Shown here in pieces: positions 140-56,232 of a stretch of 64,000 bases of DNA. Origin of the DNA: Firmicutes bacterium HGW-Firmicutes-4 (GTDB lineage Bacteria; Bacillota; Clostridia; Eubacteriales; Eubacteriaceae); the NCBI GenBank assembly GCA_002841405.1, contig PGZR01000002.1:1-64000 (forward strand), given 5' to 3'. The position numbers and the translations under genes were made by a program. The notes below the pieces were generated by a model. It worked only from the letters and a program-made list of their open reading frames with translations, was not told where the DNA came from and searched no databases. The first letter of the stretch is position 1, and each line of letters starts with the position of its first letter.

Positions 140-946
140 TTATTTTTTTACCGCGCCGTGAATCCCCTGGCGGTAAGCCCGGATATATTCGACGCAGTAT
201 TCGTCTTCCCCCATTAAGGCCTCCGTGGCAAAGATAATGCCCATTAAATCCCGATCGGTGGGATCAAGGATGGCACTGTCCAGCCCGGCCATCATCGCCA
301 TAACGGTAAAGCCCATATTGACCGTTTTGCGGGCCGGCAGGTTAAAGGAAATGTTGCTGATCGCCCCGGTAACGTGGATGGTCGGGTATTGGTTTTTGAT
401 CTCCCGGATCACCTCGGTCACCACCGCAATTCCCTCCTCCGAGGTGCAGAGCATTTCCACCAGCGGATCGATGTGCAGTCGCGAGGGGGCAATGCCGTAT
501 GTTTTGGCCTTGGCCATAATATCTGCAAACACGTCCAGCCGGTCAGTGGCGGTTTTGGGAATGCCCTTGTCGCTGTTCAGCAGTGCCACACATTCCCAGC
601 TGGTCGCGGCAATGGCCGCAAAGCCGACATCGACCTTATTGCCTTCCATCGAAACCGAGTTAAAAAGCCCCGGTTTGTTGCAGTAGTTCATGGCCGCAAT
701 GCAGGTCTGCTCGTTGGGGCTATCCACTGCAATCGGGGTCTCGGTGACTTCCTGGACGATGTCGATCAGCCATTTCATGGTCTCCAGCTCAACGTTATTC
801 TCGACTGAAGCGCAGACATCGATATAGTCCACCCCGGCCGCCGTCTGAATCCGGGCCAGATGCTTAATATACTCGGCATCCCGCGCCGCAATGGCTTTAG
901 CTGTGGCGGGAATGGCGCCGTTGATTTTTTCTCCAATGATGATCAT
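140..946 (-). CDS. Methyltetrahydrofolate:corrinoid methyltransferase (methyltransferase II)
   Basis: The 268-residue protein is a pterin-binding TIM barrel of the MtgA/MtvA/AcsE type. It transfers a methyl group between a corrinoid protein and tetrahydrofolate, feeding the Wood-Ljungdahl pathway. Visible family features are the start MIIIGEKINGAIP, the strand ending VDSPN, the NSVSME motif near residue 100, HIDPLVEML near 160 and AISNISFNLPAR near 200. The start at 946 follows AGGAGAACAAAGC. A longer frame reading upstream gives low-complexity sequence and is rejected. It sits between the His-rich DUF1292 gene and the corrinoid protein gene. The methyl-donor substrate cannot be told from this component. 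Confidence 0.88.
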   Translation of the reverse strand: MIIIGEKINGAIPATAKAIAARDAEYIKHLARIQTAAGVDYIDVCASVENNVELETMKWLIDIVQEVTETPIAVDSPNEQTCIAAMNYCNKPGLFNSVSMEGNKVDVGFAAIAATSWECVALLNSDKGIPKTATDRLDVFADIMAKAKTYGIAPSRLHIDPLVEMLCTSEEGIAVVTEVIREIKNQYPTIHVTGAISNISFNLPARKTVNMGFTVMAMMAGLDSAILDPTDRDLMGIIFATEALMGEDEYCVEYIRAYRQGIHGAVKK

Positions 947-977
947 GCTTTGTTCTCCTAATTTCTCTTCATTATTT

Positions 978-1289
978 TTAATTTTCCTGCCCGGCCAGAA
1001 AGGGCTCCAATGCCTTAAGGGTTGCCTCACTGATCGCCAGCAGGGCCGGGCCGTCAGGTCCATCGCACCATTCAAAAACATAGAGATCTTCGTTGGCGGT
1101 TTCGGCCGGGTGGTGATGGTGATCATGGCAATCACAGCTTTCGTCATGATGGTGGTGGAGTCGCTGCTCCCGGGTCAATACATACTGTTTATCACCAAAG
1201 CTGAAATGCTTTATCACATCCATTTTAAATTGGTTGCCGTGTTCATCGCTATAGATCCGGCTTTCGGCTGGCTGGTTTTTATCGGTCAT
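978..1289 (-). CDS. DUF1292-family protein with a histidine-rich metal-binding loop
   Basis: This 103-residue protein starts MTDKNQPAESRIYSDEHGN and has the small beta-rich DUF1292 pattern (sequence around YVLTREQ and DLYVFEW). Residues about 44-60 contain HHHHDESCDCHDHHHH, eight histidines and two cysteines in a very short span, which would be expected to bind transition metal ions. The start overlaps the end of the preceding gene by 11 bases, indicating translational coupling. With a COG0523 GTPase two genes upstream, a role in metal supply to the methyltransferase system is plausible (inference). The family itself has no established biochemical role. Confidence 0.65.
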   Translation of the reverse strand: MTDKNQPAESRIYSDEHGNQFKMDVIKHFSFGDKQYVLTREQRLHHHHDESCDCHDHHHHPAETANEDLYVFEWCDGPDGPALLAISEATLKALEPFLAGQEN

Positions 1290-1719
1290 GGCTTTCTCCT
1301 TTTTTCTGGGCGCATTCCAGTTGCTCAAAAAGATCAATCAGCCGCGCTTCCAAATCATTCGGGGGAATAGCAAAAACGATCAGCGCAATACTGACTAAAA
1401 CCCCATTGCTGCCGTCTGCGGCGGCTGGCTGCAGGCGACAAATTACCTGATCACCGGTTGTCGAGATCATCGCGGTCTGTCCCGTTGTTGCAAGAAAGCT
1501 TTTGAGATGACCAACAATCCCACCGCGCGCGGCAATCCATTGATTGATTACCGCAAATTCTTCCTGGATGACGGTATTTAGGGCCTTAAAAGATTTCTCC
1601 TGAAACACAGTTTCCCCGGCCATGGCCACCGTTCCTTCATGCAAAGTGGTCACAATCTGATAGCTTTTGCGTTTGCTCAGTTGCTCACTATTTCTGATTT
1701 TGATCTTGTAGTCAGCCAT
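1279..1719 (-). CDS. Uncharacterised protein between a COG0523 GTPase and a DUF1292 protein
   Basis: The 146-residue protein (MADYKIKIRNSEQLSKRKSY) was not recognised. It has no signal peptide. A hydrophobic stretch near residues 108-122 (VLVSIALIVFAIPP) looks like a buried beta strand rather than a membrane helix. The start follows AGGTGATCCAGA, overlaps the upstream GTPase stop by 8 bases, and the stop overlaps the next gene by 11 bases, so the three genes are tightly coupled. The position suggests an accessory role in corrinoid methyltransferase maturation or metal handling, but nothing in the sequence proves that. Confidence 0.6.
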   Translation of the reverse strand: MADYKIKIRNSEQLSKRKSYQIVTTLHEGTVAMAGETVFQEKSFKALNTVIQEEFAVINQWIAARGGIVGHLKSFLATTGQTAMISTTGDQVICRLQPAAADGSNGVLVSIALIVFAIPPNDLEARLIDLFEQLECAQKKGESHDR

Positions 1720-2311
1720 TCTGGATCACCTTAAGCAGCCGTTCATCAATGGGTTTAATTCCACTGATCAGATAGATTGCCGCATCTGAATTCAGTTCCC
1801 AGAGGTCAGCTTCAACCTCCCGCAATACGGTTTCCTCCACCAGATCAGTTTTATTAATCAGAATCAGGTGGGCATCATTTAGCTGTCCTTCAATCAGATT
1901 TGCCAGCGGCATCCGAATCCGCTGCCAGCGACTGGCGTCAACAAGGGTGACAATCTGGGCGGCAATCCCCAGGTTAGTAAACAGTGATTCGGCGATCTTA
2001 TCGGGAAAGGCCACTCCGGTCGCTTCGATGATCAGCCATTCCGGATCAATCGTGCTTTTTATTTCCTGCACGGCTGACAGCAAATCGCTGTTAAGACTAC
2101 AGCAGACGCATCCCGAGAAAATATCCCGGACCGTATAGCCATTGCCCCGCAGCAACTTGTCGTCAATGCCGATCTGACCAATTTCATTTTCAATGATCGC
2201 CACCTGACTCATTTGACTGCCGGGATATTGCTGCACCAGATATTGAGCCAGCTGGAGCAGCACCGATGTTTTTCCGGAACCCAGAAAACCACCCAGTATC
2301 AATATTTTCAA
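1712..2311 (-). CDS. COG0523 (CobW/HypB-like) GTPase, G domain only
   Basis: This 199-residue P-loop GTPase has a Walker A motif GGFLGSGKTS at residues 7-16, an ENEIGQIGID switch region, the COG0523 metal-binding signature GCVCCS near residue 68, and the guanine-specificity motif NKTD near 153. COG0523 proteins are metallochaperones or insertases for zinc, cobalt or cobalamin enzymes. Typical members exceed 300 residues and carry a C-terminal CobW_C domain, which is absent here. The start codon is TTG behind a GGAGGAGAAGG ribosome site. It heads a coupled set running into the methyl-THF methyltransferase and corrinoid protein, so a function in loading or reactivating that system is likely (inference). 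Confidence 0.8.
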   Translation of the reverse strand: MKILILGGFLGSGKTSVLLQLAQYLVQQYPGSQMSQVAIIENEIGQIGIDDKLLRGNGYTVRDIFSGCVCCSLNSDLLSAVQEIKSTIDPEWLIIEATGVAFPDKIAESLFTNLGIAAQIVTLVDASRWQRIRMPLANLIEGQLNDAHLILINKTDLVEETVLREVEADLWELNSDAAIYLISGIKPIDERLLKVIQNG

Positions 2312-12747: not shown

Positions 12748-13746
12748 TTAAAATCCCAGCAGATCCAGCACCTTGTCATCGACATGGCGGTTTTTGCCGA
12801 CAAAGGGATAATTATGAATATGCAGGGCTGGGTTGAAGTTAAGTTCGATAATGCTGTAGTTTGTTGCATCGGGTTTTTTTTGAATATCCCGGATGATGAT
12901 ATCGGCGCCACAGATCCGGGCACCAACTGCATGGGCTGCTGCCACCGCAATAGCCTTGTAATCATCAATAATCTCGTCGGTAAAATCAAGACTGTCCCCA
13001 CCGGTACTGATATTGGAGTTTTCCCGGAGAAAGACGTTTTCGCCATTCTCCGGAATGGTCTCGATGGATTTATTCTGCTCACTGAGAAAAGCAATTTCAG
13101 TTTTTCCTAGCTGAATCTTTTCAAGAGGGGTAACATATCCCTTTCCCCGCAACGGATCCTGGTTTTTTTCAGTCACCAACGCTTCAATGGTATGAACCCC
13201 ATCCCCCACCACGTTGGCCGGAACCCGGTGGAGAATCCCCACTACCTCATCGCCGATTACTAGAAACCGATACTCTTTGCCAGGCACGAATTCTTCAATC
13301 AATACTGATGTATCATGACTAAAAGCGTTGATTACCGCTGTCCGATAACAGTTTTCACACTGAAGATTTTTATGAATGACAATCCCTATCCCAAAATTGG
13401 AAGATTTAGGTTTTATCACAATATCTTTGCCCTGGTAACCTCCATAATGGGCCATTGCTTCAGCCGCCGATTTAACCTTGATCCCCGCCGGCACGTTGAT
13501 GCCCTTCTCACGGAGGACCAGCTTCGTCACTTCTTTATTTTCCATGATCAGCGGTGCGATATAGGTATCGGCTGATGTCCGGGTAGCCTGTTTGATATAT
13601 TCAATTCTATCGCCTTTTGTAAGCCGAATAAAATTATCCTCAAGATCAAGGATCTCAACCTCAATGCCTCTGTGCTCGGCTGCGTTAATCAGCATCGCCG
13701 TTGACAATTCCAAGCCGTTATGATTATTTATAAACATAGTCTCCAC
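12748..13746 (-). CDS. Stand-alone ATP-grasp protein matching the glutathione-synthetase half of GshF
   Basis: The 332-residue protein matches the C-terminal ATP-grasp module of bifunctional GshF (GshAB): GYQGKDIVIKPKSSNFGIGI for the ATP lysine region, VLIEEFVPGKEYRFLVIG, HRVPANVVGDGVHTIEALV, KNQDPLRGKGY, LRENSNISTGGDSLDFTDE and the metal-binding IIELNFNPALHIH. The N-terminal glutamate-cysteine ligase domain of GshF is absent, and no partner gene lies nearby. It may ligate glycine or another amine to a gamma-glutamyl or other acid. The GTG at 13746 has only a weak ribosome site. ATG at 13737 has GGAG very close. The true start is unsettled. Confidence 0.75.
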   Translation of the reverse strand: METMFINNHNGLELSTAMLINAAEHRGIEVEILDLEDNFIRLTKGDRIEYIKQATRTSADTYIAPLIMENKEVTKLVLREKGINVPAGIKVKSAAEAMAHYGGYQGKDIVIKPKSSNFGIGIVIHKNLQCENCYRTAVINAFSHDTSVLIEEFVPGKEYRFLVIGDEVVGILHRVPANVVGDGVHTIEALVTEKNQDPLRGKGYVTPLEKIQLGKTEIAFLSEQNKSIETIPENGENVFLRENSNISTGGDSLDFTDEIIDDYKAIAVAAAHAVGARICGADIIIRDIQKKPDATNYSIIELNFNPALHIHNYPFVGKNRHVDDKVLDLLGF

Positions 13747-14268: not shown

Positions 14269-14574
14269 CTAACAGCAGGAACTGTCTGATTCATGACTAT
14301 TGTCACATTCGCAGCTGGGTTCAGCCCCGGTAAAGATGCTCTTGAGAATGGCCGAAGCGCAGCCTACCCCGGTCTTCACAGTGATGGCATCAGTGGGACA
14401 ATTCATGGCACAGGCTCCGCATTCCATGCAGGCATCCTTGTCGCGGATCCGACTCTGTCCTTCAAACAATTCAAAGACCCGATGTGGACAAACCTCAAGA
14501 CAGCTTCGGCACCCGACACAACGACTTTTATCCAGCTTAAGGGAGACAACATTTTTAAAATAACGATTTTTCAT
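14269..14574 (-). CDS. hgcB: HgcB, ferredoxin partner of the mercury-methylating corrinoid protein
   Basis: The 101-residue 2[4Fe-4S] ferredoxin has cluster I motif CVGCRSCLEVCP (C19, C22, C25, C29) and cluster II motif CMECGACAMNCP (C49, C52, C55, C59). CMECGACAxNC is characteristic of HgcB. It also has the isolated conserved cysteine after cluster II (C72, in VGCA) and a C-terminal Cys pair (C100-C101), both hallmarks of HgcB, plus an extra CEC at 88-90. HgcB is thought to reduce the HgcA corrinoid and help deliver Hg(II). The start at 14574 follows AAAGGAAAAACAT. It lies 32 bases after hgcA, in the usual order and same strand. Confidence 0.92.
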   Translation of the reverse strand: MKNRYFKNVVSLKLDKSRCVGCRSCLEVCPHRVFELFEGQSRIRDKDACMECGACAMNCPTDAITVKTGVGCASAILKSIFTGAEPSCECDNSHESDSSCC

Positions 14575-14606
14575 ATGTTTTTCCTTTATCGTATTATACA
14601 ACTCGA

Positions 14607-15800
14607 TTAAAACAGGTGACTGATCAAAAGCAGCAGTCCTCCCGCGCCAATTGAAAACAACAACCCGGGAACCGCAACCCGCATTTCTTTCTGAACTCCG
14701 GAGTGGGATGTAAAAGTTGATGAGCCAGTAAAATTCATCGCATAATAGGCGGCAATGGCCGGAAAGATCAGCAGATAGCCGAACAAGCCTACCAGCGAAA
14801 TTCCCGAACTGATCGTCTGATGGCTAAAGGCTATGATGGCAAGAGTGCCCATCAGACCTAACAGCCAGCCTTTAAAGGCAAAGGCTCTTCCAGGAATTAC
14901 CGGCAATAATACCGGGGTCAGCACACAGCCGGTTAAAACAGCACCGACGTATGCCCCCACATCGATAAGACCAAACGGTTCTTTAACCACAAAATTCAGC
15001 AGTAACAAGACCCCGAAAATCATCAGGGACTGCTTGATCGTACCAACCAGCTCAATGGGCGTCAGCACCAGCCGATCATACAGGGTAAAGCTGACGGTTC
15101 GCATGCTGTCGCTTATCATCATGTCAGCCTCGAGAAAGGCTTTTATATCTCTGGCTCGGATGGGTCCATAAATAACCCGAAATCCCGATTCTTTAAAAAC
15201 GGCCTGGGCTTTTACGCCAGATGCGCCCAACTGGGGTAGGATTATTTTTCGATGCGATACGATTTCTTTGAGCCTGGTCCCGATCAGTCTGGCGACAATC
15301 TCTTTGATTCCAAAGCTGCCTTTCCCGGCAGCACACCAGACATTAATACCATTGGTATCAATGACCAGAATCCACACGTTCAGGCCAGTGAGTTCTTTCC
15401 GCAAGGCGTCAAAAGACAACTTGTAATTACAGGAAACAAGAATCGGTGAATCCTGATCGGGGCTGCCCATACCATAAAGCCCGGGGTTAATTTTATAATT
15501 CATGCGATTAATACCCCAGCGGACTTTCCATCCATCAAGAATATCTTTTTTATTTAAGCTGGGCGCAATTACCGGGACGATTCCGATTGGGGTATCAATT
15601 TCCCCAATAATCCAATGGGCATTTCTACCGGCCCTTGTGACAGTGTTTCCTGATGGTTGAGTTGGCAGCATTTGGCAGCAGGAAACCGCATTGATAACCT
15701 GATCCGGTTGATTTTCACGACACGAACAATCGGGATTCTCCGTTGTTTCAGCTGTAGGCCGTTTTTTTTCGTTTGTGCAAGAGCAGTTTTGGTTATCCAA
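14607..15800 (-). CDS. hgcA: HgcA, corrinoid membrane protein for mercury methylation
   Basis: The 397-residue protein has a CFeSP-like corrinoid-binding domain at about 60-240 containing the diagnostic cap-helix sequence NVWCAAGK at residues 153-160, with C156 the predicted lower axial ligand of cobalt. A C-terminal membrane domain has about five helices (256-397) and the conserved segment MNFTGSSTFTS ... GVQKEM. HgcA transfers a methyl group from the Wood-Ljungdahl pool to Hg(II), giving methylmercury. An N-terminal extension carries three cysteine pairs (C6/C8, C25/C27, C41/C42). The start codon is TTG with AGGAGG eight bases upstream, and a sigma-A promoter lies above. The homologous acetyl-CoA-synthase subunit AcsC/CdhE lacks this motif and the membrane domain. 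Confidence 0.94.
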   Translation of the reverse strand: MDNQNCSCTNEKKRPTAETTENPDCSCRENQPDQVINAVSCCQMLPTQPSGNTVTRAGRNAHWIIGEIDTPIGIVPVIAPSLNKKDILDGWKVRWGINRMNYKINPGLYGMGSPDQDSPILVSCNYKLSFDALRKELTGLNVWILVIDTNGINVWCAAGKGSFGIKEIVARLIGTRLKEIVSHRKIILPQLGASGVKAQAVFKESGFRVIYGPIRARDIKAFLEADMMISDSMRTVSFTLYDRLVLTPIELVGTIKQSLMIFGVLLLLNFVVKEPFGLIDVGAYVGAVLTGCVLTPVLLPVIPGRAFAFKGWLLGLMGTLAIIAFSHQTISSGISLVGLFGYLLIFPAIAAYYAMNFTGSSTFTSHSGVQKEMRVAVPGLLFSIGAGGLLLLISHLF

Positions 15801-15882
15801 AGGGTATTCCTCCTGTATTAGTACTTCCTTTTCAATCTTATATTCCTGTTACTCTTTTCCTTATTTTTATGAATATGGGTAT

Positions 15883-15911
15883 ATGTTATTTGACTGTTCT
15901 CGGCTTGTCAA
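15883..15911 (-). promoter_or_regulatory. Sigma-A promoter of hgcAB
   Basis: On the minus strand TTGACA and TAACAT are separated by exactly 17 bases, giving a predicted transcript start about 75 bases before the hgcA start codon. No ArsR-type operator dyad was recognised over it. Confidence 0.65.
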
Positions 15912-16015: not shown

Positions 16016-16039
16016 AAACTCAAAGCGTAGAAAAGAAAT

Positions 16040-16260
16040 AGTACATATTATTGATGTCATAGAAAGTGGGCAGTTAGCGTAAGTCTATCTTGGAGCTGCA
16101 AGTCGAATGGATAATACCTGGTAAGGCTTGACAGTCGCTCACCGTTAAAATGAAAAGGCATTGTCAGATGCTGGTGAGTGCAGGCATTTGACCTGAATTT
16201 AGGTGGTACCGCGGACTGAATGTTCGTCCTAAGCGTATTTTAGCTTGGGACGTTTTTTTT
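16040..16260 (+). promoter_or_regulatory. T-box leader, now in front of a truncated proS
   Basis: The conserved T-box antiterminator sequence AATTTAGGTGGTACCGCGG lies at 16196-16214, preceded by GATGCTGGTGAGTGCAGG typical of T-box leaders and followed by a terminator. T-box RNAs sense uncharged tRNA. The TGGT in the bulge would pair with a tRNA ending ACCA, which fits tRNA-Pro among others. The specifier codon could not be fixed by eye. The only downstream frame is a short proS stub, so the leader looks orphaned. Confidence 0.85.
16225..16260 (+). terminator. Terminator of the T-box leader
   Basis: CGTCCTAAGC and GCTTGGGACG pair across an eight-base loop, followed by eight T residues. It is the alternative structure to the T-box antiterminator. 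Confidence 0.85.
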
Positions 16261-16277
16261 ATTTTAGGAGGTATTTT

Positions 16278-16463
16278 ATGAAAGTATCAGCATTGGTTGG
16301 AGATCGGTTTAAAGAGACCCCCTCGGAGTGTGTCATTGACAGCCACATATTTATGCTCCGTGGTGGCTATATTCGGGGCAGTCTGAATAATCATCTAAAA
16401 ACAAACAAAAAGTTAATATACTCTCCATTTCGCGCACAAGATGAATATACAAACTTATTCTAA
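16278..16463 (+). pseudogene. proS: N-terminal stub of prolyl-tRNA synthetase
   Basis: After a strong ribosome site (TTAGGAGGTATTTT) the frame reads MKVSALVGDRFKETPSEC, then SHIFMLRGGYI. This resembles the N-terminus of bacterial ProRS (pattern VSxLxxxxxKExPSxxxxxSHxLMLRGGYI). After about 35 residues similarity ends abruptly and 26 unrelated residues precede a stop. Full ProRS is over 470 residues, so this is a remnant left by deletion. Its T-box leader supports the assignment. A functional proS must lie elsewhere in the genome. Confidence 0.65.
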
Positions 16464-16614: not shown

Positions 16615-17179
16615 TTAAAGCTCCTTTAACAGCATCGTCAAGCACTGACAGCTTTCATCCAACTCACAAATCTTATTACCCAGCTGTTTTGTAGTAGCAG
16701 CTTCTTTATTGGCAATCACCCGATTGACCAGCTCGCTGAGTTCCTGCTTCAGCGTGGCCGATTCGCGTTCCACCACCGCCTTGCTCAAAAAGGCCTTCGG
16801 TTCATCAATTTTCTGGTTAAGCAGCTCAGCCATCCCCACTTTGGTTTTGACGCTGATGGCAAACAGTTCGATGGCATCGGCGGCCATAATCTGACAAAGC
16901 CTATTATGACAATAACCCTGATAGGCTTCCAGATCCGCTGGGCTGATGGTGTCGATCTTATTAGCATTTGGCGGCGTAATTACGGGCTTCAACTAAAAAC
17001 TCCCGCGCGATTTCGTTAATCGGACTATCCACAGAGAGCATAAAAATGATCGCGTCGCTATCTTTCATAAAGGCGTAGGCTTCATCGGGTCTTTTGACTG
17101 TAGCTGGTATCCATCGTATAACTTTTGCACAAATCAAAAAAGCCGATGATCCTGTATGATTAACAGAAGTCATCAGCAT
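16615..17179 (-). pseudogene. Remnant of a dynamin-family GTPase, frameshifted
   Basis: Two overlapping minus-strand frames together resemble the middle of a dynamin-like G domain. The upstream frame has RPDEAYAFMKDSDAIIFMLS, then VDSPINEIAREFLVEARNYA and a premature stop near 16961. The other frame continues with NKIDTISPADLEAYQGYC (G4 motif NKID), IELFAISVKTKVGM and a coiled C-terminal part rich in Glu, Lys and Leu. The P-loop (GxxxxGKS) is not present upstream, and the frame change occurs just before NKID where a few codons are missing. The rest of a 500-plus residue protein is absent. Confidence 0.55.
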
Positions 17180-17337
17180 GTCAGCATCTTGGCCGGAGCC
17201 AGGGCGAACTTCATCACCTTTTGTCTTAGTTTAATCGATTCAATCGAAAATTTCAATCGCTAATTATCGTATTCACCCAAATTTGACGGCAATTATTTAC
17301 AATTCAATTTTGATTTCGATTTCACTCCCACCTTTTA

Positions 17338-17366: not shown

Positions 17367-17373
17367 TATTTCA

Positions 17374-17450
17374 AATAAGGTGATGGAGTTCACCTGAATT
17401 GCGTACTAGCTGATGACTCCTGCAGGATTTTCAATGCTGCAGGTTTTTTA
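17374..17450 (+). promoter_or_regulatory. Fluoride riboswitch (crcB motif) with terminator
   Basis: The segment GGTGATGGAGTTCACCTGAA with the downstream GCTGATGACTCCTGCAGG matches the crcB/fluoride aptamer: a short GGTGA/TCACC stem enclosing TGGAGT, and a pseudoknot partner ACTCC after a GCTGATG turn. The 3' side then forms a CCTGCAG/CTGCAGG hairpin followed by TTTTTT (17419-17449), the expected terminator. Fluoride binding would let transcription continue into the two fluC genes. Confidence 0.88.
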
Positions 17451-18483: not shown

Positions 18484-18521
18484 TATCTTATCTCTTTGCG
18501 CTGCATTTTAATCTACAGTAC

Positions 18522-18634
18522 AACCTGATCAGGCCATGACCATTTAAGCTCATGGAGCCGGGCCGTTGCGACGGCAACAGATTTGATTTTTTCACATCTG
18601 TGGGACAGAAGTTTGTTCCTCAGGTGTTTTTTTT
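18522..18634 (+). promoter_or_regulatory. NiCo (czcD) riboswitch
   Basis: The sequence contains the NiCo aptamer core: a CCATGA/TCATGG stem, then GAGCCGGGCCGTTGCGACGG, CAACAGAT, and CACATCTGTGGGACAG, closely following the conserved GCCGGGC, GGCAACAG and CTGTGGGACAG elements of the class. ACCTGA at the 5' side and TCAGGT at the 3' side can close P1, and the 3' strand runs into eight T residues, giving an aptamer/terminator switch. NiCo RNAs turn on cation exporters when Ni(II) or Co(II) is high. The P-type ATPase follows 90 bases later. Confidence 0.88.
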
Positions 18635-18723: not shown

Positions 18724-21205
18724 ATGACTGAAAACTCAAACAGTCCGGCGGGACTGACCACTAAAGATGCAATCCTGCGGCAGGAGCAATTTGGCAAAAA
18801 CGAATTGGCACCGCAGAAACAAGAAAGCTTTTTCCACAAGGTGTTGCACATTATCAGTGAGCCGATGTTTTTACTGCTGCTGGTCGCCGCCGCCATCTAT
18901 TTTTTCCTCGGAGAACCCCGGGATGGCGCCATTATGCTGATTTTTGTCATCGGCATTATCAGCATTGATGTGATCCAAGAATGGAAAACCGACAAAACCC
19001 TCAATGCCCTGAAAGATCTGTCCGCCCCCCATGTCAAAGTCATCCGGGATGGCCAGGAAGTCACCATAGCCAGTGTTGATCTGGTCCCCGGTGATGCGAT
19101 GATGATTTACGAGGGGGTCAAAATTCCCGCCGACGGCATCGTGATCCGCTGCAATGATTGCTGTGTCGATGAATCTTCGCTGACCGGAGAAGCTGAAGGC
19201 GTTTGGAAAATCGCTACTGAAACGGCTTTGCCTTCATCCGATCATTGGCGTAAAGATTATTGCTATGCCGGTACCCTCGTGACCCAGGGTACCGCAACCG
19301 TTGTCGTTGACAAAATTGGCCCCGCCACCGAGTATGGCAAAATCGGCATTGATGTGGCATCAGCTCCGGATGAACCGACGCCGCTACAGAAGCAAACCGG
19401 CAGCCTGGTCAAGCTCTGCGCCGGTATCGCTGCGGTCTTGTGTGCCCTGGTTGCAGTGGTTACCTATATCAATATCCCCGACCACGCCCTCGGTGACCGA
19501 CTGATCGAAAGTATCTTGTCCGGGATTACCCTGGCCATGGCGATGATCCCCGAAGAATTCCCGGTTATCCTCACCGTCTTTCTGTCGATGGGGGCCTGGC
19601 GTCTGGCCAAGAAACAATCGCTGGTCCGTAAGCTGCCTTCGGTGGAAACCCTGGGTGCGGTTTCGGTCCTTTGTGTCGATAAAACCGGCACCATCACCAT
19701 GAACCAGATGACCGTCCAGGAAACCTGGGCGCCTGATGGTGATCTCGAGACCCTCTGCGAAGTCATGGGCCTGGGCTGCGAAACCGATGCCTACGACCCG
19801 ATGGAAAAGGCCATGCTCCGTCACTGTGAAAAAGCCGGTTTTTCGCGAGAACATCTCTTTGGTGGTGAACTGATCAGCGAATATGCTTTCACCAATGAGC
19901 TGAAAATGATGGGACACGTCTGGTTTCATGATGACGAAATTATTATTGCTGCCAAGGGCTCCCCGGAACGGATCCTGACCATCGCTGATCTGTCGGCCGG
20001 AGAACGGGCAGTGATTGATGATAAAATCCAGTCAATGTCCGAGCAGGGTTTGCGGGTCATTGCGGTTGGCCTGATGAAACCTAAAACCGAAGCCGATATT
20101 CCCCAGACTATTGAAGCCTGCCAGCTGACCCTGTGCGGCCTGGTCGGACTGGCCGATCCGCCCCGGGAATCTGTCAAAGCCGATATCGCCATCTGTAATC
20201 AGGCCGGTATTCGGGTCGTGATGATTACCGGTGACAACGGCATCACCGCTGCCAGCATCGCCAAAAAAATCGGCATGCCCAATCTTGATCATATTATCAC
20301 CGGAGACATGCTCAGTGAAATGGGCGATGAAGAACTCCGCGAGCAGGTTAAAGATGTCAGTATTTTTTCCCGGGTTATCCCCGAACATAAGATGCGGATT
20401 GTCAAAGCCTTTAAAGAAAACGGCGAAATTGTAGCCATGACCGGTGACGGTGTCAATGATGCCCCGGCCCTGAAATATGCCGATATCGGTGATGGACGAC
20501 AATTTCTCAACCATTGTTGAAACCGTTCAGGACGGCCGCCGGATTTTTGACAATATCCGCAAAGCCGTGGGTTACGTATTTACCATTCATATCCCGATTG
20601 CCTTCGCCGCTTTGCTGGCCCCGCTGATGGGAATAACCCCAACCAGCCTGCTGTTATTGCCCCTGCATGTGGTCTTGCTGGAACTGATCATCGATCCCAC
20701 CTGTTCGATCGTGTTGGAACGGCAGCCAGCCGAAACGGACATCATGACACGGCCGCCCCGTAATCCCAAAGAAAAGCTTCTCAATGCCAAAATCCTGTTA
20801 AAAAGTGTCACCCAGGGTCTGGTCTTGTTTGCCGCTTCCTTCGGTACCTATCTCTATATGCTGGGTCAGCATCCGGACAACCCGGAGCTGGCCCGAACCA
20901 TGGGTTTTGCCGTCATCATGCTGGCAAATCTCTTTCTGGTTCAGGTCAACAGTTCCGATTGCGATTTTGCGGTTCAATCAATGAAACGGTTGGTAAAAGA
21001 CCGGGTGATGTGGGTTGTCAACCTTGGGACCCTGTTGGGCCTGTTGGTCATCCTGTATACCCCCTTGAATGCATTTTTCAAATTTGCCCCCCTCACCGTC
21101 AGTCAATTCCTGATAGTTTTTGCCATTGCCGGGGTCTCGGTTTTATGGTATGAAGTGGTCAAGCTGATAAAAAAATTAAGAAAATCCAACGCCGCTTCCA
21201 TTTAA
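18724..21205 (+). pseudogene. P-type cation-exporting ATPase disrupted by a short internal deletion
   Basis: Two adjoining frames encode a P2-like ATPase of about 840 residues: SLTGEAEG actuator loop, PEEFPVIL in membrane helix 4, phosphorylation motif CVDKTGTIT and hinge MTGDGVNDAPALKYADIG. The first frame stops at 20520 after shifting. The second resumes at MDDNFSTIVETVQDGRRIF and contains the last membrane helices. Between DIG and MDDN about 19 conserved residues (usually IAMG...GTEVA...) are missing, implying a deletion near 20490 of a length not divisible by three. The NiCo leader predicts Ni/Co export. The gene is probably inactive unless this is a sequence error. Confidence 0.85.
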
Positions 21206-21436: not shown

Positions 21437-23749
21437 TTATTCAATTTTATTCATTGCAAAATAAAAGTCCACAAAATCATCTGACGACAGCGGCCGACTG
21501 AAGAGATAACCCTGAACAAAATCACAGCGGAATTTTTTCAGAAATTCCAATTGTTCTGCGGTTTCGACACCCTCGGCAACCACTTGAATGCCAAGACCAT
21601 GGATTATTGTAATCATCGATTCGGCAATCATTTGCTCGCGCTCGTCGGCGACCATATTACTGATCAGGGACCGGTCGAGTTTAATAATATCCAGGGGCAG
21701 ATCCTTCATACAACCAAAAGAAGAATAACCGATGCCAAAATCATCCAGCGCCAGCTTAACCCCAATTTGTTTCAAATCATTAAAAACGTTGACCAGTTCT
21801 TCGGTATCCCGAATTAAAATACTTTCGGTTATTTCAAGCTTAATGCAGTTGGCTTCGATTCCCGCCTCGCGAATGCCGCAAGAAACCGATTCCGTCAGTT
21901 CCGTACCGCGATTCTCAAATGACAAAAGCGAAACATTAATGCTGACGGTCATATCAGACATGCCTGCTTTTTGCCACTGTCTGATTTTTTTACACACTTC
22001 CCCAATGACCCAATCCGTGATTGGAATAATAAGCTTTGTTTTTTCCGCGATCGGGATAAAATCAACGGGAGAGATCCGCCCCAGATACGGATGATCCCAT
22101 CGGAGCAATGCTTCGGCATGATTAATAATCCCACTATTAATATCATAGATAGGCTGATAATGAAGTTCAAACTCACTCTTTTCAAGGGCAATCTTCAAAT
22201 CTTTTTCCAGAATTGCTTCCCTGGTTCGGGTTTGATCCATTTCCGGAATGTATCGGACAATTTTATTTTTCTCTTTTTTAGCCACATATAATGCGGTATC
22301 CGCATTTTTTACAGTCTGTTCCAGGTCTTGTGGTTCTGACCCCATCCCGATGCCAATACTGGCCGTTAAATAAAAAAGCCGTTTTGCTACCATAAATTGG
22401 GTTGAAATTGTCTTCAGTACCTGTAACGCCAGCCCGTTGACAAACTGATAATCACTGGACTCAACGATGATGACAAACTCATCGCCATCATAGCGATAAA
22501 CCAAGCCATTATTACCAACACTGTTTATAATTCTGGTTGCCATATCCAGAAGCACATCATCCCCTTCCTGATGTCCCAGAGCATCATTGATAATCCGGAA
22601 ATTATCAAGATTGATGATAATCACTGATTTTTGCATTTTATCCGCTTTCTCATCGAGAAATTTCTGCCTCAGCGCTTTTCGATTTAACAAGCCGGTCAGC
22701 GGATCATGGAAATCAATATAACGGATTTGTTCTTCTTTTTTCTTTCGCTCATTAATACTCCGGCTCGAACTGACAATCTCGATCTCACCCAGGGCATTAT
22801 AACGAAATCGCGAGGAGGTCTCCACCCAAATGATTTCACCATTTTTACACGGCTGCTGGATCTCGTAGATATAGGTCTTGGGAGTATCCGGTTCAGCGAT
22901 AAACTCCTGTTTCCTTATGGAAATTTCTTCCACAAGTTTTGGGGCACTGTTAAAAGCCAACTTATCAACAAAGTTCTCCATCAGCGCCTCTTCGACCGTA
23001 TACCCGCGCAGATCCTGGATGGAGGGACTGATATAAACAAATTTTCCCGAATCCACGTTAAACACCCAGATAACATCCGCCGTCGTATCAGCCAGCAATC
23101 GATATTTTTCTTCGCTGAGGGCCAGCGATGTCCGTGAGTTCAGGATTTCCCGAGTCTGATTTTCCAGACCTTCATAAATCATGTTGTATAAGAATACCAA
23201 AACAACAATAATGATCTGAGCGGTGATGGCATTGATCAGCCAGAAATCGCCGTACATTTCTATCGGCAAGCCTTGCAAAAAACCGGTTAGCAGCATGACC
23301 GTCAAAACTAAAAAAATCACCAGATTAATGACAAAAAAGACCTTATTCTGTCGCTTATTCAATAATGAGACCGCCAGGACAAAGGAAAAGATAACACTGA
23401 TCATTCCCGCACCCATGGGGCCCGTATAGACCAATAAGACAATGCTGATTACATAGATGCTGCTAATCACCAGAAACTTTCTGGTGTCAATCTTCATTTT
23501 CTTTTTGGTTACCGCAAAGACAATCACGGCAAAGATCGCGGCTTCGAATATGGCAAGTAAGGTGTTGCCATTGGCGAAGAACAAATATGCCCCATAAATA
23601 AGGATTGGTCCGCATAAAAAAACAAGTGACAAAGAAAGCAGTGAAAAGATTCTATTTTTCCATAATTCGATACCATAGGCATCGTCGCTGACGTCAATTT
23701 CCCGAAACATTAATTTACCCAAAAATTTTGTTATTTTTTCTCTGTCCAT
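21437..23749 (-). CDS. Membrane PAS-GGDEF-EAL cyclic-di-GMP protein
   Basis: The 770-residue protein has about six N-terminal membrane helices (35-190), a PAS domain (about 213-335), a GGDEF domain (about 340-500) and an EAL domain (about 510-765). The cyclase motif reads DGDEF at 421-425 (context YRYDGDEFVII), a first-position substitution that may reduce cyclase activity. The EAL domain keeps EALLRW (546-551), NVS, EITES, DDFGIGYSS (668-676) and VVAEGVET, so c-di-GMP hydrolysis is likely. The ribosome site is weak (AGGGATAAACTCCA). It is a single gene converging on the ATPase, with its own downstream region sharing the 21308-21346 hairpin. Confidence 0.9.
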   Translation of the reverse strand: MDREKITKFLGKLMFREIDVSDDAYGIELWKNRIFSLLSLSLVFLCGPILIYGAYLFFANGNTLLAIFEAAIFAVIVFAVTKKKMKIDTRKFLVISSIYVISIVLLVYTGPMGAGMISVIFSFVLAVSLLNKRQNKVFFVINLVIFLVLTVMLLTGFLQGLPIEMYGDFWLINAITAQIIIVVLVFLYNMIYEGLENQTREILNSRTSLALSEEKYRLLADTTADVIWVFNVDSGKFVYISPSIQDLRGYTVEEALMENFVDKLAFNSAPKLVEEISIRKQEFIAEPDTPKTYIYEIQQPCKNGEIIWVETSSRFRYNALGEIEIVSSSRSINERKKKEEQIRYIDFHDPLTGLLNRKALRQKFLDEKADKMQKSVIIINLDNFRIINDALGHQEGDDVLLDMATRIINSVGNNGLVYRYDGDEFVIIVESSDYQFVNGLALQVLKTISTQFMVAKRLFYLTASIGIGMGSEPQDLEQTVKNADTALYVAKKEKNKIVRYIPEMDQTRTREAILEKDLKIALEKSEFELHYQPIYDINSGIINHAEALLRWDHPYLGRISPVDFIPIAEKTKLIIPITDWVIGEVCKKIRQWQKAGMSDMTVSINVSLLSFENRGTELTESVSCGIREAGIEANCIKLEITESILIRDTEELVNVFNDLKQIGVKLALDDFGIGYSSFGCMKDLPLDIIKLDRSLISNMVADEREQMIAESMITIIHGLGIQVVAEGVETAEQLEFLKKFRCDFVQGYLFSRPLSSDDFVDFYFAMNKIE

Positions 23750-48638: not shown

Positions 48639-51600
48639 TCAGCAATTATTTACCCACGCAAAGGCGGCTGCGGGCCGGCCGCAATAATAGCCCTGCACTG
48701 CATCGCAACCCTTTTCCCTGAGAAATCGGAGCTGCGCTTCTGTTTCGACCCCTTCAGCAATTACCTGCAAACCCAGTTTCTTCGCCAGATGAATCATCAC
48801 CGCGATAATCGATTCGTCCTTGGGGTTTACCCCAATTCCGCGAATAAAGGGTCGATCGATTTTGATATGGTCCACCGGCAGATCTTTTATCCGACTCAGC
48901 GAAGAAAACTCGGTACCAAAATCGTCAATGCTGATACTGACTCCTAAGGCTTTTAGCTGGTGAAGGGTCTGGATCACATCATGCGATTCCTCCATGGCAA
49001 TAGTTTCAGTGATTTCCAGCTCCAAATATCTGGGATCCAGGCCAGTTTGTTCCAAACAATTCTTGACCATGGCGGTCAGATCACTGCGAAACTGCTCCAC
49101 CGAGAGATTCACCGAGACTGGCAGCGGTTGAAACCCATGCTCCTGCCAGGACTTGTTTTGGGCACAGGCCGTCATCAGTACCCATTCACCAATTGCTGCC
49201 ATCAGACCGTTCTGCTCGGCAAAAGGGATAAAAATCGCCGGCGATACCACTCCCAATTCCGGATGGGCCCACCTGAGCAGGGCTTCAAATCCACGTATTT
49301 GCAGTCGTTGGGCCTCTATAATGGGCTGGTAGTCGAGAAAAAACTCCTGTCTTTCCAGAGCACGATGCAGGCTGTTGCTTAAAATCATCTTTTCACGGAC
49401 CCCTTTTTTCATCGCTTCTGAACAAAAAGCAACTTGGCCCTTACCATTTTTTTTGGCCTCATACATAGCCAGATCAGCATGTTTGATCAGTGACTGGACG
49501 GTCTCTCCGTCTTCCGGGAAAACCGCAATTCCACCGCTACCGGAAATATAAAATTCCTGTTCCCCAAGACTCACTGGCAGTTGGAAAACCGACATCACCC
49601 GGTCTGCTACTTCAGCCAATTTTCTTTCATCGGTCAGCTGTGAGACCAGAATCAGAAACTCATCGCCACCAAACCGCGCCATTGAATCACAATCTCTGAG
49701 ACTCTCCGACAAACGTCTGCCAATCCGGTTCAGCAGATGATCGCCCCAGTCATGGCCCATAGCATCATTGACTTCCTTGAATCCATCAATATCGACAAAA
49801 ATCACCCCGAGCGAATCGCCACTGATCGTCGCTGCGGTGATAGACTTTTCCAGCCGCTCTTGAAACAGTACCCGATTGGGCAAGCCGGTTAGTCCATCAT
49901 AATAAGCCCGGCAATGCATTTCTTTCTCATTTTCAATCTTACCGAGGGCATCGGCCAGAATATTGGCCAGCACGCGCAGCAGTTCCGGGTCATCGATCCG
50001 CCAGGATTTGTTTTTTTGGATCTGCTCAAAGCCGAGGTAGCCGATAGTTTTTTCGCGGCTCTGAATCGGAATAAGCAACAGTGACTCGATTCCCTCTGCC
50101 GCCATTCTTTCCTTCTCCGGTTTTTCCTCAGCGGTTAGATCATCCTTTGAGGCCACGTAAACCAACTCATTATTTAAGAGTTTTTGGGAAAACCATGGGT
50201 AATCCAGTGTTTGAGCCTTTCCGTCTTGTTGGACGCTGGGGAATTGATCCTCCGCCAGCCATTCATCAATACACCTGAAACTGCCAGTTTCTTCTGAATA
50301 CTGTCCTGCATAAACCCGGTCTGAGTGGGTGAACTCACCGCTTGTTTTTAATAAATCGCGAACTTTTTCGTCAAAGTTACTGGCTGACACCGAAACAAAA
50401 TGGGTGGTCACCTGGGAAATCATCTTCTGAAAGCCAACCTGGCGGTCGTTTTCTTTAAGTCTGGTAATATAAATACGATTGGTATAGCCGGCCAGATGAA
50501 TGGCCACAACGCAGATAAAAAGTCTGGCCAGATAATCTGCGGTGCCGATATGAACCCACTGATCCGGTTTCGTTAACCAGATGATTAAACCCGAAATCAG
50601 CGTTACTACTGTTAAAATAACGAACATTTTCCGGCGTTTGAAAATTATCGTGGTCATCAAAAAAATTAGCGGCACCGCCCATACCGTATTGGCCAAGTTA
50701 TCGACCGGTTTAAAAAGGGCCAACGGAATGACGGCTGCCATCATCATCGTCAGAATCTGATCCTGGTTGGCGGTTGATAAACCGGAATATGGCAAACTGT
50801 AAATGGCCAGTCCCAGGGCCAGATTAACGGTACAGACCAGGATAACCTGCCATAACGCAGTTGGATAAAGAAAGAAGTGCCCGAGGTTTAGGACGCTCAT
50901 CAACAGAAATATAATTGCCATCGCCCGAAACAGGGCTAGACGGGCGTCATGACTGAGAATTTCGCTGAGCTTCACTTTTTTTGCTGCCATCACCGGGACC
51001 ATCAGTTTATATTTCCTGATATCATAGGCAAAAGCCAGCACCGGGATGAGAATTAGAATCGGTGCAACGGAGGGAATCTTAACAGCCAGCATGTTGTTTA
51101 CCAGCATCTCAGATGCCGTCCCCAAGGCAATCGCAACTGAAAATGCCAGCATCAGCCAAAATGCCTGCTGCTGCTTTTGCCGGTCTGGAGAGGTTCGATA
51201 CCATTTAAATAAAATGCCCAGGGTAATCAGTGAAAAACTCAGGAAATAGACGTTATAAAAGATATCCCAGCCATTATTAATGGGAATATTTCCCCAGCCG
51301 GCCGGGGTCTGAATCAGATTATACTGAGCGTTGGCCAGATCCGGGACCAGGGCGAATACTGAAATGGTAATGGCCGCCGGCAGATAGATGGCCACTCTTA
51401 TTTTGGCGGAGCGCAGCACCTTATGATTTTCAGTTAAAATGAGAATAAAATGGAGCATCAAACTGAAGGCGCTACCCCAGCCCAAGGCCGCAATCCGGCG
51501 CCAGATCAGCACATTCTGGAGATCACTCAGAGAGTTGGAAATAGCAAAAGCAAAGGTCCAGATGGCATAACTCATACATAACCAGAAAAAAACCTGATTG

Positions 51601-51698
51601 AGCCGCTCTTTTTTATTGAGAAAGAGGCTAAAAAAACCCAGACTGCTATACAGGATAAAAATTAAATAGAAAAGAATTGATATTTGATTTTGCAGCAT
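48639..51698 (-). CDS. 7TM-GAF-GGDEF-EAL cyclic-di-GMP protein, copy 1
   Basis: The 1019-residue protein has an N-terminal seven-helix membrane domain of the histidine-kinase 7TM type (about 5-230), further helices (about 255-410), a GAF-like domain (about 425-590), a GGDEF domain with intact GGDEF at 677-681 (ARFGGDEFLIL) and an EAL domain with EALLRWAHPE, NLS, EITETIAM, IDDFGTEFSS and VIAEGVETE. In the motif around DDFG, GTEFSS replaces the usual GTGYSS. Both cyclase and phosphodiesterase are plausibly active. It lies next to a close paralogue in the same orientation. Confidence 0.92.
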   Translation of the reverse strand: MLQNQISILFYLIFILYSSLGFFSLFLNKKERLNQVFFWLCMSYAIWTFAFAISNSLSDLQNVLIWRRIAALGWGSAFSLMLHFILILTENHKVLRSAKIRVAIYLPAAITISVFALVPDLANAQYNLIQTPAGWGNIPINNGWDIFYNVYFLSFSLITLGILFKWYRTSPDRQKQQQAFWLMLAFSVAIALGTASEMLVNNMLAVKIPSVAPILILIPVLAFAYDIRKYKLMVPVMAAKKVKLSEILSHDARLALFRAMAIIFLLMSVLNLGHFFLYPTALWQVILVCTVNLALGLAIYSLPYSGLSTANQDQILTMMMAAVIPLALFKPVDNLANTVWAVPLIFLMTTIIFKRRKMFVILTVVTLISGLIIWLTKPDQWVHIGTADYLARLFICVVAIHLAGYTNRIYITRLKENDRQVGFQKMISQVTTHFVSVSASNFDEKVRDLLKTSGEFTHSDRVYAGQYSEETGSFRCIDEWLAEDQFPSVQQDGKAQTLDYPWFSQKLLNNELVYVASKDDLTAEEKPEKERMAAEGIESLLLIPIQSREKTIGYLGFEQIQKNKSWRIDDPELLRVLANILADALGKIENEKEMHCRAYYDGLTGLPNRVLFQERLEKSITAATISGDSLGVIFVDIDGFKEVNDAMGHDWGDHLLNRIGRRLSESLRDCDSMARFGGDEFLILVSQLTDERKLAEVADRVMSVFQLPVSLGEQEFYISGSGGIAVFPEDGETVQSLIKHADLAMYEAKKNGKGQVAFCSEAMKKGVREKMILSNSLHRALERQEFFLDYQPIIEAQRLQIRGFEALLRWAHPELGVVSPAIFIPFAEQNGLMAAIGEWVLMTACAQNKSWQEHGFQPLPVSVNLSVEQFRSDLTAMVKNCLEQTGLDPRYLELEITETIAMEESHDVIQTLHQLKALGVSISIDDFGTEFSSLSRIKDLPVDHIKIDRPFIRGIGVNPKDESIIAVMIHLAKKLGLQVIAEGVETEAQLRFLREKGCDAVQGYYCGRPAAAFAWVNNC

Positions 51699-51741
51699 TT
51701 AATCCCCTTAATAGTCATAATCTAGAAATTTAAAATATGTT

Positions 51742-54700
51742 TTATCCAGGCTCGCCGCCAGTCATGGCTGTTATGCACCTGGGACCTGTTTCGCATCGGC
51801 TGGACTGATTTTGATAAATATCGGTTTGAATGGTGTCGACAGAAACTGGTTTTGAGAAATAATAACCCTGAATTTCGTTGCAGTCCTCGATCCGTAAAAA
51901 TGCTAACTGAGCAGCCGTTTCCACCCCTTCGGCGGTAACCTCCAGTCCCAGTTCCCGGGCCAGATGGATCATTACCGAAATAACCGCTTCATCCCGGGGA
52001 TTCGCCCCGATTCCCCAGATAAACTGGCGGTCGATTTTAATTCGGTCCACCGGCAGATCTTTGAGACGGCTCATCGACGAAAAGGCGGTGCCAAAATCAT
52101 CGATGCTGATGGACACGCCCAATTTTTTTAAGGCATAAAGCTGTCGGATCACATATTGAGAGGTCTTCATGGCAATGCCCTCAGTGATTTCCAGATCCAG
52201 ATACTGTGCTTCCAGCCTGGTGGCTGCGAGACAGTTATGGATAATGCGCTCCAGATTGGAGCTGCGAAACTGCTCCACCGACAAATTCACACCCATCCGA
52301 ACTGGTTTGTATCCCTGCTCCTGCCAGGCCTTATTCTGGGCACAGGCGGTCTGCAACACCCATTCGCCGATGGTACTAATTAGTCCGCTTTGTTCGGCCA
52401 GAGGAATAAATAGCTCTGGCGAAATAATCCCCCGTTCCGGATGGTTCCACCGCAACAACGCTTCGAAACCGGTAAGCTCATGGGTCTCTGCTGAAACCTG
52501 AGGTTGATAATGGAGAAATAGTTCGTGGTTTTCCAACGCCCGATGCAGACTATTGGTCAGCATCATCTTTTCCTGCACCGCCTCTTTCATATCCCCTGAA
52601 CAATAGTTGATCCGGCCTTTGCCACTTTTTTTAGCGGCATACATGGCCAGATCGGCATTTTTAATCAGGCTATTGACATTTTCTCCATCTTTGGGGTAAA
52701 TGGCAATCCCGCCGCTACCCGAAATATACAGTTCCTGTTCGGCCACCAGAAAGGGGCGATGAAAAATCGTCATCACCTTTTCGACAATTTTTTCCAGCTC
52801 CAGGTCCTGCGAAACCTGAGGAACCATAATCAGAAATTCGTCACCGCCAAACCGTCCGATCAGATCGGCTTCACCAAGACAGTCAATGAGTCGATTCCCT
52901 ATTCGCTTCAACAGCTGGTCGCCCCAGTCATGGCCAAGGGTATCATTAACTTCTTTAAAGCCATCCAGATCAATAAAGATCACTCCCAAATTTTTGCCGG
53001 TTTGTCGGGCCAGATCAATGGCCTGCTCCAGCCGTCGATAAAATAAGGTCCGATTGGGAATCCCCGTAAGCGGATCATAGTAGGCCAGGTAATTCATATC
53101 ATGTTCGGTTTCCACCTTGGCAATGGCATCCGCCAGAATATTGGCCAGCACTCTCAGCCAATCCGGGTCGATTACCCTTAGCGCTTTACTACCACGGACC
53201 TCTTCAAATCCGAGCAGACCGATAATACTGTTATTACTCTGAATGGGAACGAGGATCTGAGACCGGACTTTTGCCTTTTTAAGCCACAGACAGTCTTCCT
53301 CAGCCGCTGCAGGAAGCTGATTGGGACTGGGAATATCGATAATTTCATTCTTTAGAATTTGCTCCATCCGCCAGGATCCTGCCGTGATCCCAACATTTTT
53401 TGTCTCGTCCATCAGTGAGGTTATCCCTGCACTCACCCATTCATGGCTGCAAACCAGGTTTTTTTCATCCTCGGAAATTCGACCAAGATAGACTCGGTCG
53501 ATGCTGGTAAAATTTCCACTTTCTTTGAGCAGCTGCTTGACCTTGTCATCAAAATTGATCCGGTTCATGGTGACGAAATCTGCCGACAATCGCGAAATCA
53601 TTTTCTGAAAGGAATCCTGTTTGCTGTTTTCCTGCAGTCGTAAAACATAAATCTGGGTGATAATGGCGGTCATTCCAATCCCAATTGCGTAGAACAGTAG
53701 CCGATAAAAATAGAGCCGCTGGTCAACCAGCAGCCATAAATCTGGCATCAATATCCAGAAAAGCACTTCCATCAGGAGACTCAAAACGGTCAGCGCTAAA
53801 AATATTTTTTTATTATTAAAAATAACGGTAAGCATCAAATAAAAGATCGGAATCGGCCAGATGATGGTTCTGAAATCGACGTTGTAATGGCCAAGCATCA
53901 CCACCGGCAGCAAAACCGCAAGAAAATAACCGAGGGCATTTTCCTGCGTCTTGATTGACTTGAAGAGATAGGGAATACTGACAACAAAGGCTCCCATCAG
54001 GACCAGCGTAAAACTTAAAAACAGCCCAGTGATACAATTATCGCCCGTGCTGATGCGGCCATAGAAATTCAGGATACTCCCGATAATCAGCACAATGCTG
54101 ACATACTTAAAAAGCCTCGTACGGCTGAGCGTACTGAGGATTATTCCTTCCTGTTGCGATTCATTTTCATTCTGGGGCGCCAGCATCAAACCATATTTAC
54201 GGATGATCCAATAAATCGTAACTGCCGGTATCATTGTGATCACCGGGGCCAAAGACGGTAGCTGAACGTTTGAAAAACTGACGGTGATAAAATCGGTCAG
54301 GGTTCCTAAAACCAAAGCCACCAGAAAGGACAACAGAATTGCCCGGGCCTTTTTGCGGTTAATTGCACTATCCGTTTGTTTATACCATTGGACAAGTAAT
54401 ATCATGGCGATCAGGGAAAAACTCAGATAATAGCCTAAAAACATCCGGTCATACCAAATAACATTGGTTGTGGTGTACCAACCAGCAGGGGAATAGACCA
54501 TTTGAACATGTCCATTTTCAGGCATACTGTAAATTAGAAAGGTGATTGCATTCACTATCGCCGGCAGGTAAAGAACCGACATCAACATCGGTCTTTTCTC
54601 AGTTCGACTCCAGTTCGATTCGGTGAGAATAATAACGAAATGAAGCATAATACTGTAAGCTACGCCCCATCCCAACACCGACATCCGTCGCCATAACAGC

Positions 54701-54891
54701 GCTTCTTCGCTGGTTAGCGAAGAATTGATAGCAGCAAATGTAAATCCCCACAGCGCAAAGCTTAAACCGAGACAGGCAAACACCCGATTGAGCCGCGACT
54801 TGGTATTGAGGGTTAAGCTATAGGTTCCAAAAATAACATAGACGACAAATGTCAGATAGAGTGTCATGGATATGATATTCTGCAGCGTCAT
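51742..54891 (-). CDS. 7TM-GAF-GGDEF-EAL cyclic-di-GMP protein, copy 2
   Basis: The 1049-residue protein has the same architecture and clear paralogy to the downstream copy: seven N-terminal helices, a second helical bundle, GAF-like region, GGDEF (IGRFGGDEFLIMV) and EAL (EALLRWNHPERG, NLS, EITEGIAM, IDDFGTAFSSMSR, VTAEGVETAAQ). It ends in a Cys-containing tail (SSRCETGPRCITAM). Start at 54891 follows GGAGGACAA. The 43-base gap to copy 1 suggests one transcript. The pair probably arose by tandem duplication. Confidence 0.92.
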   Translation of the reverse strand: MTLQNIISMTLYLTFVVYVIFGTYSLTLNTKSRLNRVFACLGLSFALWGFTFAAINSSLTSEEALLWRRMSVLGWGVAYSIMLHFVIILTESNWSRTEKRPMLMSVLYLPAIVNAITFLIYSMPENGHVQMVYSPAGWYTTTNVIWYDRMFLGYYLSFSLIAMILLVQWYKQTDSAINRKKARAILLSFLVALVLGTLTDFITVSFSNVQLPSLAPVITMIPAVTIYWIIRKYGLMLAPQNENESQQEGIILSTLSRTRLFKYVSIVLIIGSILNFYGRISTGDNCITGLFLSFTLVLMGAFVVSIPYLFKSIKTQENALGYFLAVLLPVVMLGHYNVDFRTIIWPIPIFYLMLTVIFNNKKIFLALTVLSLLMEVLFWILMPDLWLLVDQRLYFYRLLFYAIGIGMTAIITQIYVLRLQENSKQDSFQKMISRLSADFVTMNRINFDDKVKQLLKESGNFTSIDRVYLGRISEDEKNLVCSHEWVSAGITSLMDETKNVGITAGSWRMEQILKNEIIDIPSPNQLPAAAEEDCLWLKKAKVRSQILVPIQSNNSIIGLLGFEEVRGSKALRVIDPDWLRVLANILADAIAKVETEHDMNYLAYYDPLTGIPNRTLFYRRLEQAIDLARQTGKNLGVIFIDLDGFKEVNDTLGHDWGDQLLKRIGNRLIDCLGEADLIGRFGGDEFLIMVPQVSQDLELEKIVEKVMTIFHRPFLVAEQELYISGSGGIAIYPKDGENVNSLIKNADLAMYAAKKSGKGRINYCSGDMKEAVQEKMMLTNSLHRALENHELFLHYQPQVSAETHELTGFEALLRWNHPERGIISPELFIPLAEQSGLISTIGEWVLQTACAQNKAWQEQGYKPVRMGVNLSVEQFRSSNLERIIHNCLAATRLEAQYLDLEITEGIAMKTSQYVIRQLYALKKLGVSISIDDFGTAFSSMSRLKDLPVDRIKIDRQFIWGIGANPRDEAVISVMIHLARELGLEVTAEGVETAAQLAFLRIEDCNEIQGYYFSKPVSVDTIQTDIYQNQSSRCETGPRCITAMTGGEPG

Positions 54892-55034
54892 TTGTCCTCC
54901 TCGCAAATATTTGATCAGGTCTAATATTTATTATTATACTATTAAGCAGCTGGATAATCAATTGGATCCTCAGCCCAGGCTCAACCCATAATACAGTTGC
55001 CTAACGTGAACTGTCCGGTGGGAATGGAATGGTT

Positions 55035-56039: not shown

Positions 56040-56232
56040 GTTGTTCTCCTTGTCTAAAATGCGATGAAATAATTATCCCATAAGCCCTGGCAGATGGCAA
56101 ATTGCAAGTTTTTTTGCTGCCGCATACCAGCTTCCGCCGCCACCGCTGAAAAAACCGCTGTCTCCTTGTAGCTAGTCTTCACCTTAATTTCCGGCATTTT
56201 TTATTTGTGCTAGTCTGATTATTGCGACACTT

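Follow-up and report, generated by a model that had tools for sequence, protein, structure and literature searches.

A conserved hgcAB operon, predicted to methylate mercury, in a variable genomic slot of Acetobacterium

Features of the hgcAB locus

The window analysed here is a stretch of 64,000 nucleotides whose minus strand carries all the hgcAB features named in the original prediction, including the sequence NVWCAAGK around Cys156 of HgcA and the motif CMECGACAMNC and terminal cysteine pair of HgcB (Table 1). The predicted gene order and promoter were also found: hgcB lies directly downstream of hgcA on the same strand, across a gap of 32 nt and in an order kept in three genomes, behind a candidate promoter whose TTGACA and TAACAT boxes are 17 nt apart. 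Both boxes are identical upstream of hgcA in a second genome, G009. The ribosome-binding site AGGAGG is conserved in three genomes, and the TTG start of hgcA follows 8 nt past it. For hgcB the ATG at 14574, with AAAGGA ahead of it, is preferred to the TTG at 14601 in the open reading frame list, which sits upstream of AAAGGA.

Table 1. Coordinates of features discussed in the text, as positions in the window
Feature	Coordinates	Strand	Remarks
Methyl-THF:corrinoid-type methyltransferase gene	140-1147		PRK07535, 329.9 bits
CobW-like gene	1712-2311		neighbour of the methyltransferase gene
gshF-like ATP-grasp gene	12748-13746	-	left neighbour of the hgcBA slot
hgcB	14269-14574	-	101 aa; 2x[4Fe-4S] ferredoxin, Cys72, C-terminal CC
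hgcA	14607-15800	-	397 aa, TTG start; corrinoid-binding domain with cap-helix Cys156
Cys-rich N-terminal tail of HgcA	15648-15800	-	residues 1-51; predicted disordered
Ribosome-binding site of hgcA	15809-15814	-	AGGAGG
Sigma-70-type promoter (predicted)	15883-15911	-	TTGACA 15911-15906; TAACAT 15888-15883
T-box leader	16019-16234	+	71.9 bits, under the Rfam cut-off of 93
Short ORF after T-box	16245-16463		no Pfam match
Dynamin-family GTPase gene remnants	16615-17179	-	tblastn fragments; Dynamin_N 101.5 bits
Fluoride riboswitch	17157-17227	-	32.5 bits (Rfam cut-off 34)
Fluoride riboswitch	17370-17429	+	48.3 bits
NiCo (nickel/cobalt) riboswitch	18515-18610	+	81.1 bits
P-type cation ATPase	18724-20520		downstream of the NiCo riboswitch
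Continuation of P-type cation ATPase	20477-21205		separate ORF
GGDEF-EAL proteins	21437-23749; 48639-58605	-	four across the window, of which three fall within 10 kb

HgcA scored 446.9 bits against the NCBI curated equivalog model NF040863 (cut-off 275), aligning to positions 1-324 of its 325, and HgcB scored 126.2 bits against NF040864 (cut-off 99); scores so far over curated cut-offs exclude chance as the source of these features. The cap motif N153-V154-W155-C156-A157 was invariant in an alignment of 33 HgcA homologues from several phyla, so that the cysteine on which the original prediction depended is kept in 33 of 33 sequences; loci with a stop codon inside the matched stretch were left out of alignments. 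Besides five long predicted membrane helices, HgcA contains NFTGSSTFTSHSGVQKEM. The AlphaFold model of the protein (mean pLDDT 80) joins a corrinoid-type alpha/beta domain to these five C-terminal helices (residues 240-268, 278-301, 307-325, 336-357 and 366-396), and its cap segment, built without the cofactor, is of moderate confidence. In the PDB it was closest to 9a0b_A, a chain from the published model of HgcAB (E=3.4e-19, 40% identity), followed by chains of the corrinoid iron-sulfur protein (CFeSP).

HgcB has two CxxCxxCxxxC motifs, CVGCRSCLEVC (cysteines 19/22/25/29) and CMECGACAMNC (49/52/55/59), an extra cysteine at position 72, and a tail CEC...SSCC that ends in the pair 100/101. It is 91-93% identical to HgcB of both other hgcAB-positive Acetobacterium genomes. 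The importance of the HgcA cap cysteine and of HgcB cysteines was established by mutation in Desulfovibrio (Pseudodesulfovibrio) ND132 (PMC7305189), and the key cysteines of the window proteins correspond to the residues mutated there.

HgcA shares a homologous corrinoid domain with CFeSP, and no gene for the CFeSP gamma subunit (AcsC) was found in the assembly to which the window belongs (G000), two observations that would suit a reading of the gene as a divergent AcsC of the Wood-Ljungdahl pathway. The apparent absence of AcsC probably reflects an assembly gap, since contig C177 ends just beyond acsE, which is the position of acsC in G009. Against the CFeSP gamma model (PRK04165, curated cut-off 306) the window protein reached 72.1 bits, far behind its score with the HgcA model, and it has the five predicted membrane helices and the cap cysteine. 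Conversely, under the HgcA model the AcsC genes of 14 other Acetobacterium genomes did not exceed 40-46 bits, and in G009 an AcsC gene occurs as well as hgcA. We give the AcsC reading practically no credence; the scores already refute it and assign the protein to HgcA. The model for HgcAB-like fusions (NF043039) was likewise rejected, at 196.3 bits with a cut-off of 285, and hgcA and hgcB are two separate genes.

The window HgcA begins with a tail (pLDDT below 50) in which six cysteines are arranged as CSC, CSC and CC. Six cysteines in the pattern CxC, CxC, CC, with different residues between them, likewise occur in the HgcA tail of G009 and in that of the S2.10 homologue. Among 82 HgcA sequences, for which start codons were assigned by a simple rule and the counts are therefore approximate, 51 have a prefix of at least 15 residues, 33 of these 51 carry at least two cysteines in it, and cysteine frequency is 6.6% in the prefix versus 0.7% in the core. 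Non-conserved Cys-rich tails recur across phyla, for example at loci L017, L018, L022, L067 and L069. A tentative suggestion, which we regard as possible but doubtful, is that the tail acts as a second Hg(II)-capturing arm and passes mercury to the HgcB cysteine pair or to the corrinoid; if so, tailed HgcAs would differ in Hg(II) affinity from tail-less ones. We found no description of such a tail in the open-access literature.

Host genome and methyl metabolism

The genome had been described as acetogen-like, and its genus is Acetobacterium, with acsB, acsA and acsE present. The closest named relative, with 81% HgcA identity, is an Acetobacterium metagenome-assembled genome (MAG), and G000 was grouped in one genus with 18 other genomes, this MAG among them. 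The G000 assembly consists of 225 contigs and is 86% complete with 2.3% contamination; rpoB is absent from it, and the genome was placed by the gshF-like gene and acsB instead. The gene acsB is present on contigs C219 and C184 and, in partial form, on C177, which also carries acsA and acsE.

A supply of methyl groups from pathways encoded about 10 kb from hgcAB had also been proposed. One methyl-THF:corrinoid-type methyltransferase gene does lie about 13 kb away, accompanied by the CobW-like gene (the two being 12-14 kb from hgcAB), and these genes underlie that proposal, but there is no Wood-Ljungdahl operon near hgcAB, the acs genes being on other contigs. The methyltransferase gene is compatible with a role in methyl supply, although its closeness proves no coupling.

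Elsewhere in the window, the P-type cation ATPase gene preceded by a nickel/cobalt riboswitch continues as a separate open reading frame and is possibly frameshifted. Cyclic-di-GMP proteins of the GGDEF-EAL type occur at an unusual density.

Distribution and history of the locus

The gene hgcA is rare in this part of the bacteria: scores above the cut-off of the HgcA model were found in 3 of 19 genomes of Acetobacterium, 3 of 40 of the family and 5 of 67 of the order. The carriers in Acetobacterium are G000, the MAG G008 and G009, a single contig of 4.08 Mb that is 99% complete; G017 is among the Acetobacterium genomes without hgcA. In the HgcA tree the three Acetobacterium sequences form one group (support 100/100, stem 0.53), nested in a mostly Bacillota clade of 28 rows (support 97/84). 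Spread on plasmids gained no support, as HgcA had no match among 72,556 plasmid records, from which very near records were possibly left out.

The fragmentation, incompleteness and contamination of the G000 assembly might suggest that the hgcAB contig is foreign and was wrongly binned. The genes flanking the locus on both sides, however, encode proteins 95-96% identical to those of G004, a 100%-complete congener, and the arrangement recurs in G009, where its presence on one long contig makes a binning error unlikely. The probability of such an error is in our estimate negligible, and synteny already refutes it.

The gshF-like gene, present at 65% identity or more in 15 of the 19 Acetobacterium genomes, adjoins hgcBA in all three carriers, with a DUF1232 gene in between in G000. 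A pair of crcB genes lies on the far side in G000 and G009, and the G008 contig stops just upstream of hgcA. No trace of hgcAB was found in G004, the nearest relative by both the gshF-like gene and acsB, or in G018, sister to G008 and G009 in the gshF-like tree. Both genomes are 99-100% complete, and in them the gshF-like gene is separated from a dynamin-family GTPase gene by 163 and 169 bp, respectively. The slot holds a DUF1232 remnant in G002. In G013 and G016 it is occupied by a different gene, by eye a formate/nitrite-type channel (L184 3440-5300, L185 1150-2850), which marks the site beside the gshF-like gene as variable in the genus.

In G004, G018, G015, G016 and G002 this place holds an uninterrupted dynamin-family GTPase gene, coding for about 560-600 aa, of which the window retains remnants with internal deletions. 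Two fluoride riboswitches stand back to back here, the stronger ahead of crcB and the other, slightly below the Rfam cut-off, pointing at the degraded GTPase gene, an arrangement that suggests that the GTPase is or was fluoride-regulated. Between these remnants and hgcA, a T-box leader is followed by a short open reading frame that by eye resembles the beginning of a tRNA-synthetase gene; together they are possibly a stranded gene fragment.

Between G000 and G009, hgcA codons are 69% identical at position 3 and 87-88% at positions 1 and 2, and the lower value at position 3 indicates purifying conservation. Third-codon identities of hgcA and the gshF-like gene are similar, at 69.3 versus 66.6% for G000 and G009 and 86.4 versus 87.0% for G008 and G009. 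The divergence of hgcA thus matches that of its neighbour, which favours an old acquisition of hgcAB that accompanied this neighbour from the time the lineages diverged and was later lost in G004 and G018. It is likely that hgcAB was gained once in part of the genus, in a fixed slot by the gshF-like gene, and was lost in close relatives; the same picture would arise if members of the genus had exchanged the entire segment by recombination via the shared flanks.

Proposed function

We consider it very probable that the locus is a complete and conserved Acetobacterium hgcAB operon, with Hg(II) methylation as its most likely, predicted function and a single gain followed by losses as its history. 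Direct support covers gene identity, intact active-site residues, the operon, a promoter-like site, the host genus and its Wood-Ljungdahl genes. By analogy with characterised HgcAB, HgcA would bind a corrinoid with Cys156 as the cobalt ligand, and a cellular methyl-THF-dependent corrinoid methyltransferase would probably recharge it. HgcB would be the source of low-potential electrons, and its cysteine pair would deliver Hg(II) to the methyl-cobalt centre. For hgcAB in this host we infer expression, the methyl source and the methylmercury product. Organisms with hgcAB do not necessarily methylate mercury under all test conditions.

The operon might also be expressed but have a different native function, for instance another corrinoid methyl transfer, with mercury methylation incidental or absent in this host. 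Neither mer genes nor a known mercury regulator were seen beside hgcAB, the neighbours scanned included no regulator gene, and MerB was not found in the genus Acetobacterium by a search that lacked a positive control. The patchy presence of hgcAB suggests a conditional benefit. Every residue with an established requirement in mercury methylation is nevertheless intact, and we judge a different native role to be improbable, mercury methylation being the reading that we prefer.

Acetogenic Firmicutes, or acetogens, are already counted among mercury methylators (PMC7573106; PMC10896945). In the open-access literature we found no link between Acetobacterium and hgcA; one paper mentions both without connecting them (PMC8123684), and both words also occur in a paper whose subject is radical-SAM cobalamin domains. 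The HgcAB family and methylation by acetogens are therefore known, and the presence of hgcAB in Acetobacterium, its variable slot and the empty sites in relatives appear to be unreported in the literature searched. Acetobacterium species are well-studied, culturable acetogens from anoxic sediments, sludge and bioreactors, and if some of them methylate mercury, the range of possible methylmercury sources widens. Close relatives with and without hgcAB between the same flanks offer a natural comparison for its cost or benefit, which could also show which methyl-THF enzyme feeds HgcA.

Comparison with known systems

The subunits AcsC and CdhE (CFeSP gamma) resemble HgcA in their homologous corrinoid-binding domain (2h9a, 4djd), but differ from it in having no HgcA-type membrane domain, no cap cysteine and other partners, and their gene is separate from hgcA in these genomes. 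The likeness to ND132 extends over both proteins: its HgcA has a corrinoid domain with a cap-helix cysteine and five membrane helices, its HgcB is a dicluster ferredoxin with an extra cysteine and a C-terminal CC, and its hgcA and hgcB are adjacent. The window HgcA differs in its 40% identity to the 9a0b_A chain and in the added tail of about 51 residues with its six cysteines. The HgcA proteins of Desulfosporosinus, Gracilibacter, Pseudobacteroides and Sinanaerobacter fall in the same tree clade at about 48-59% identity, and from these Bacillota HgcAB the Acetobacterium sequences stand apart as a long-stemmed group.
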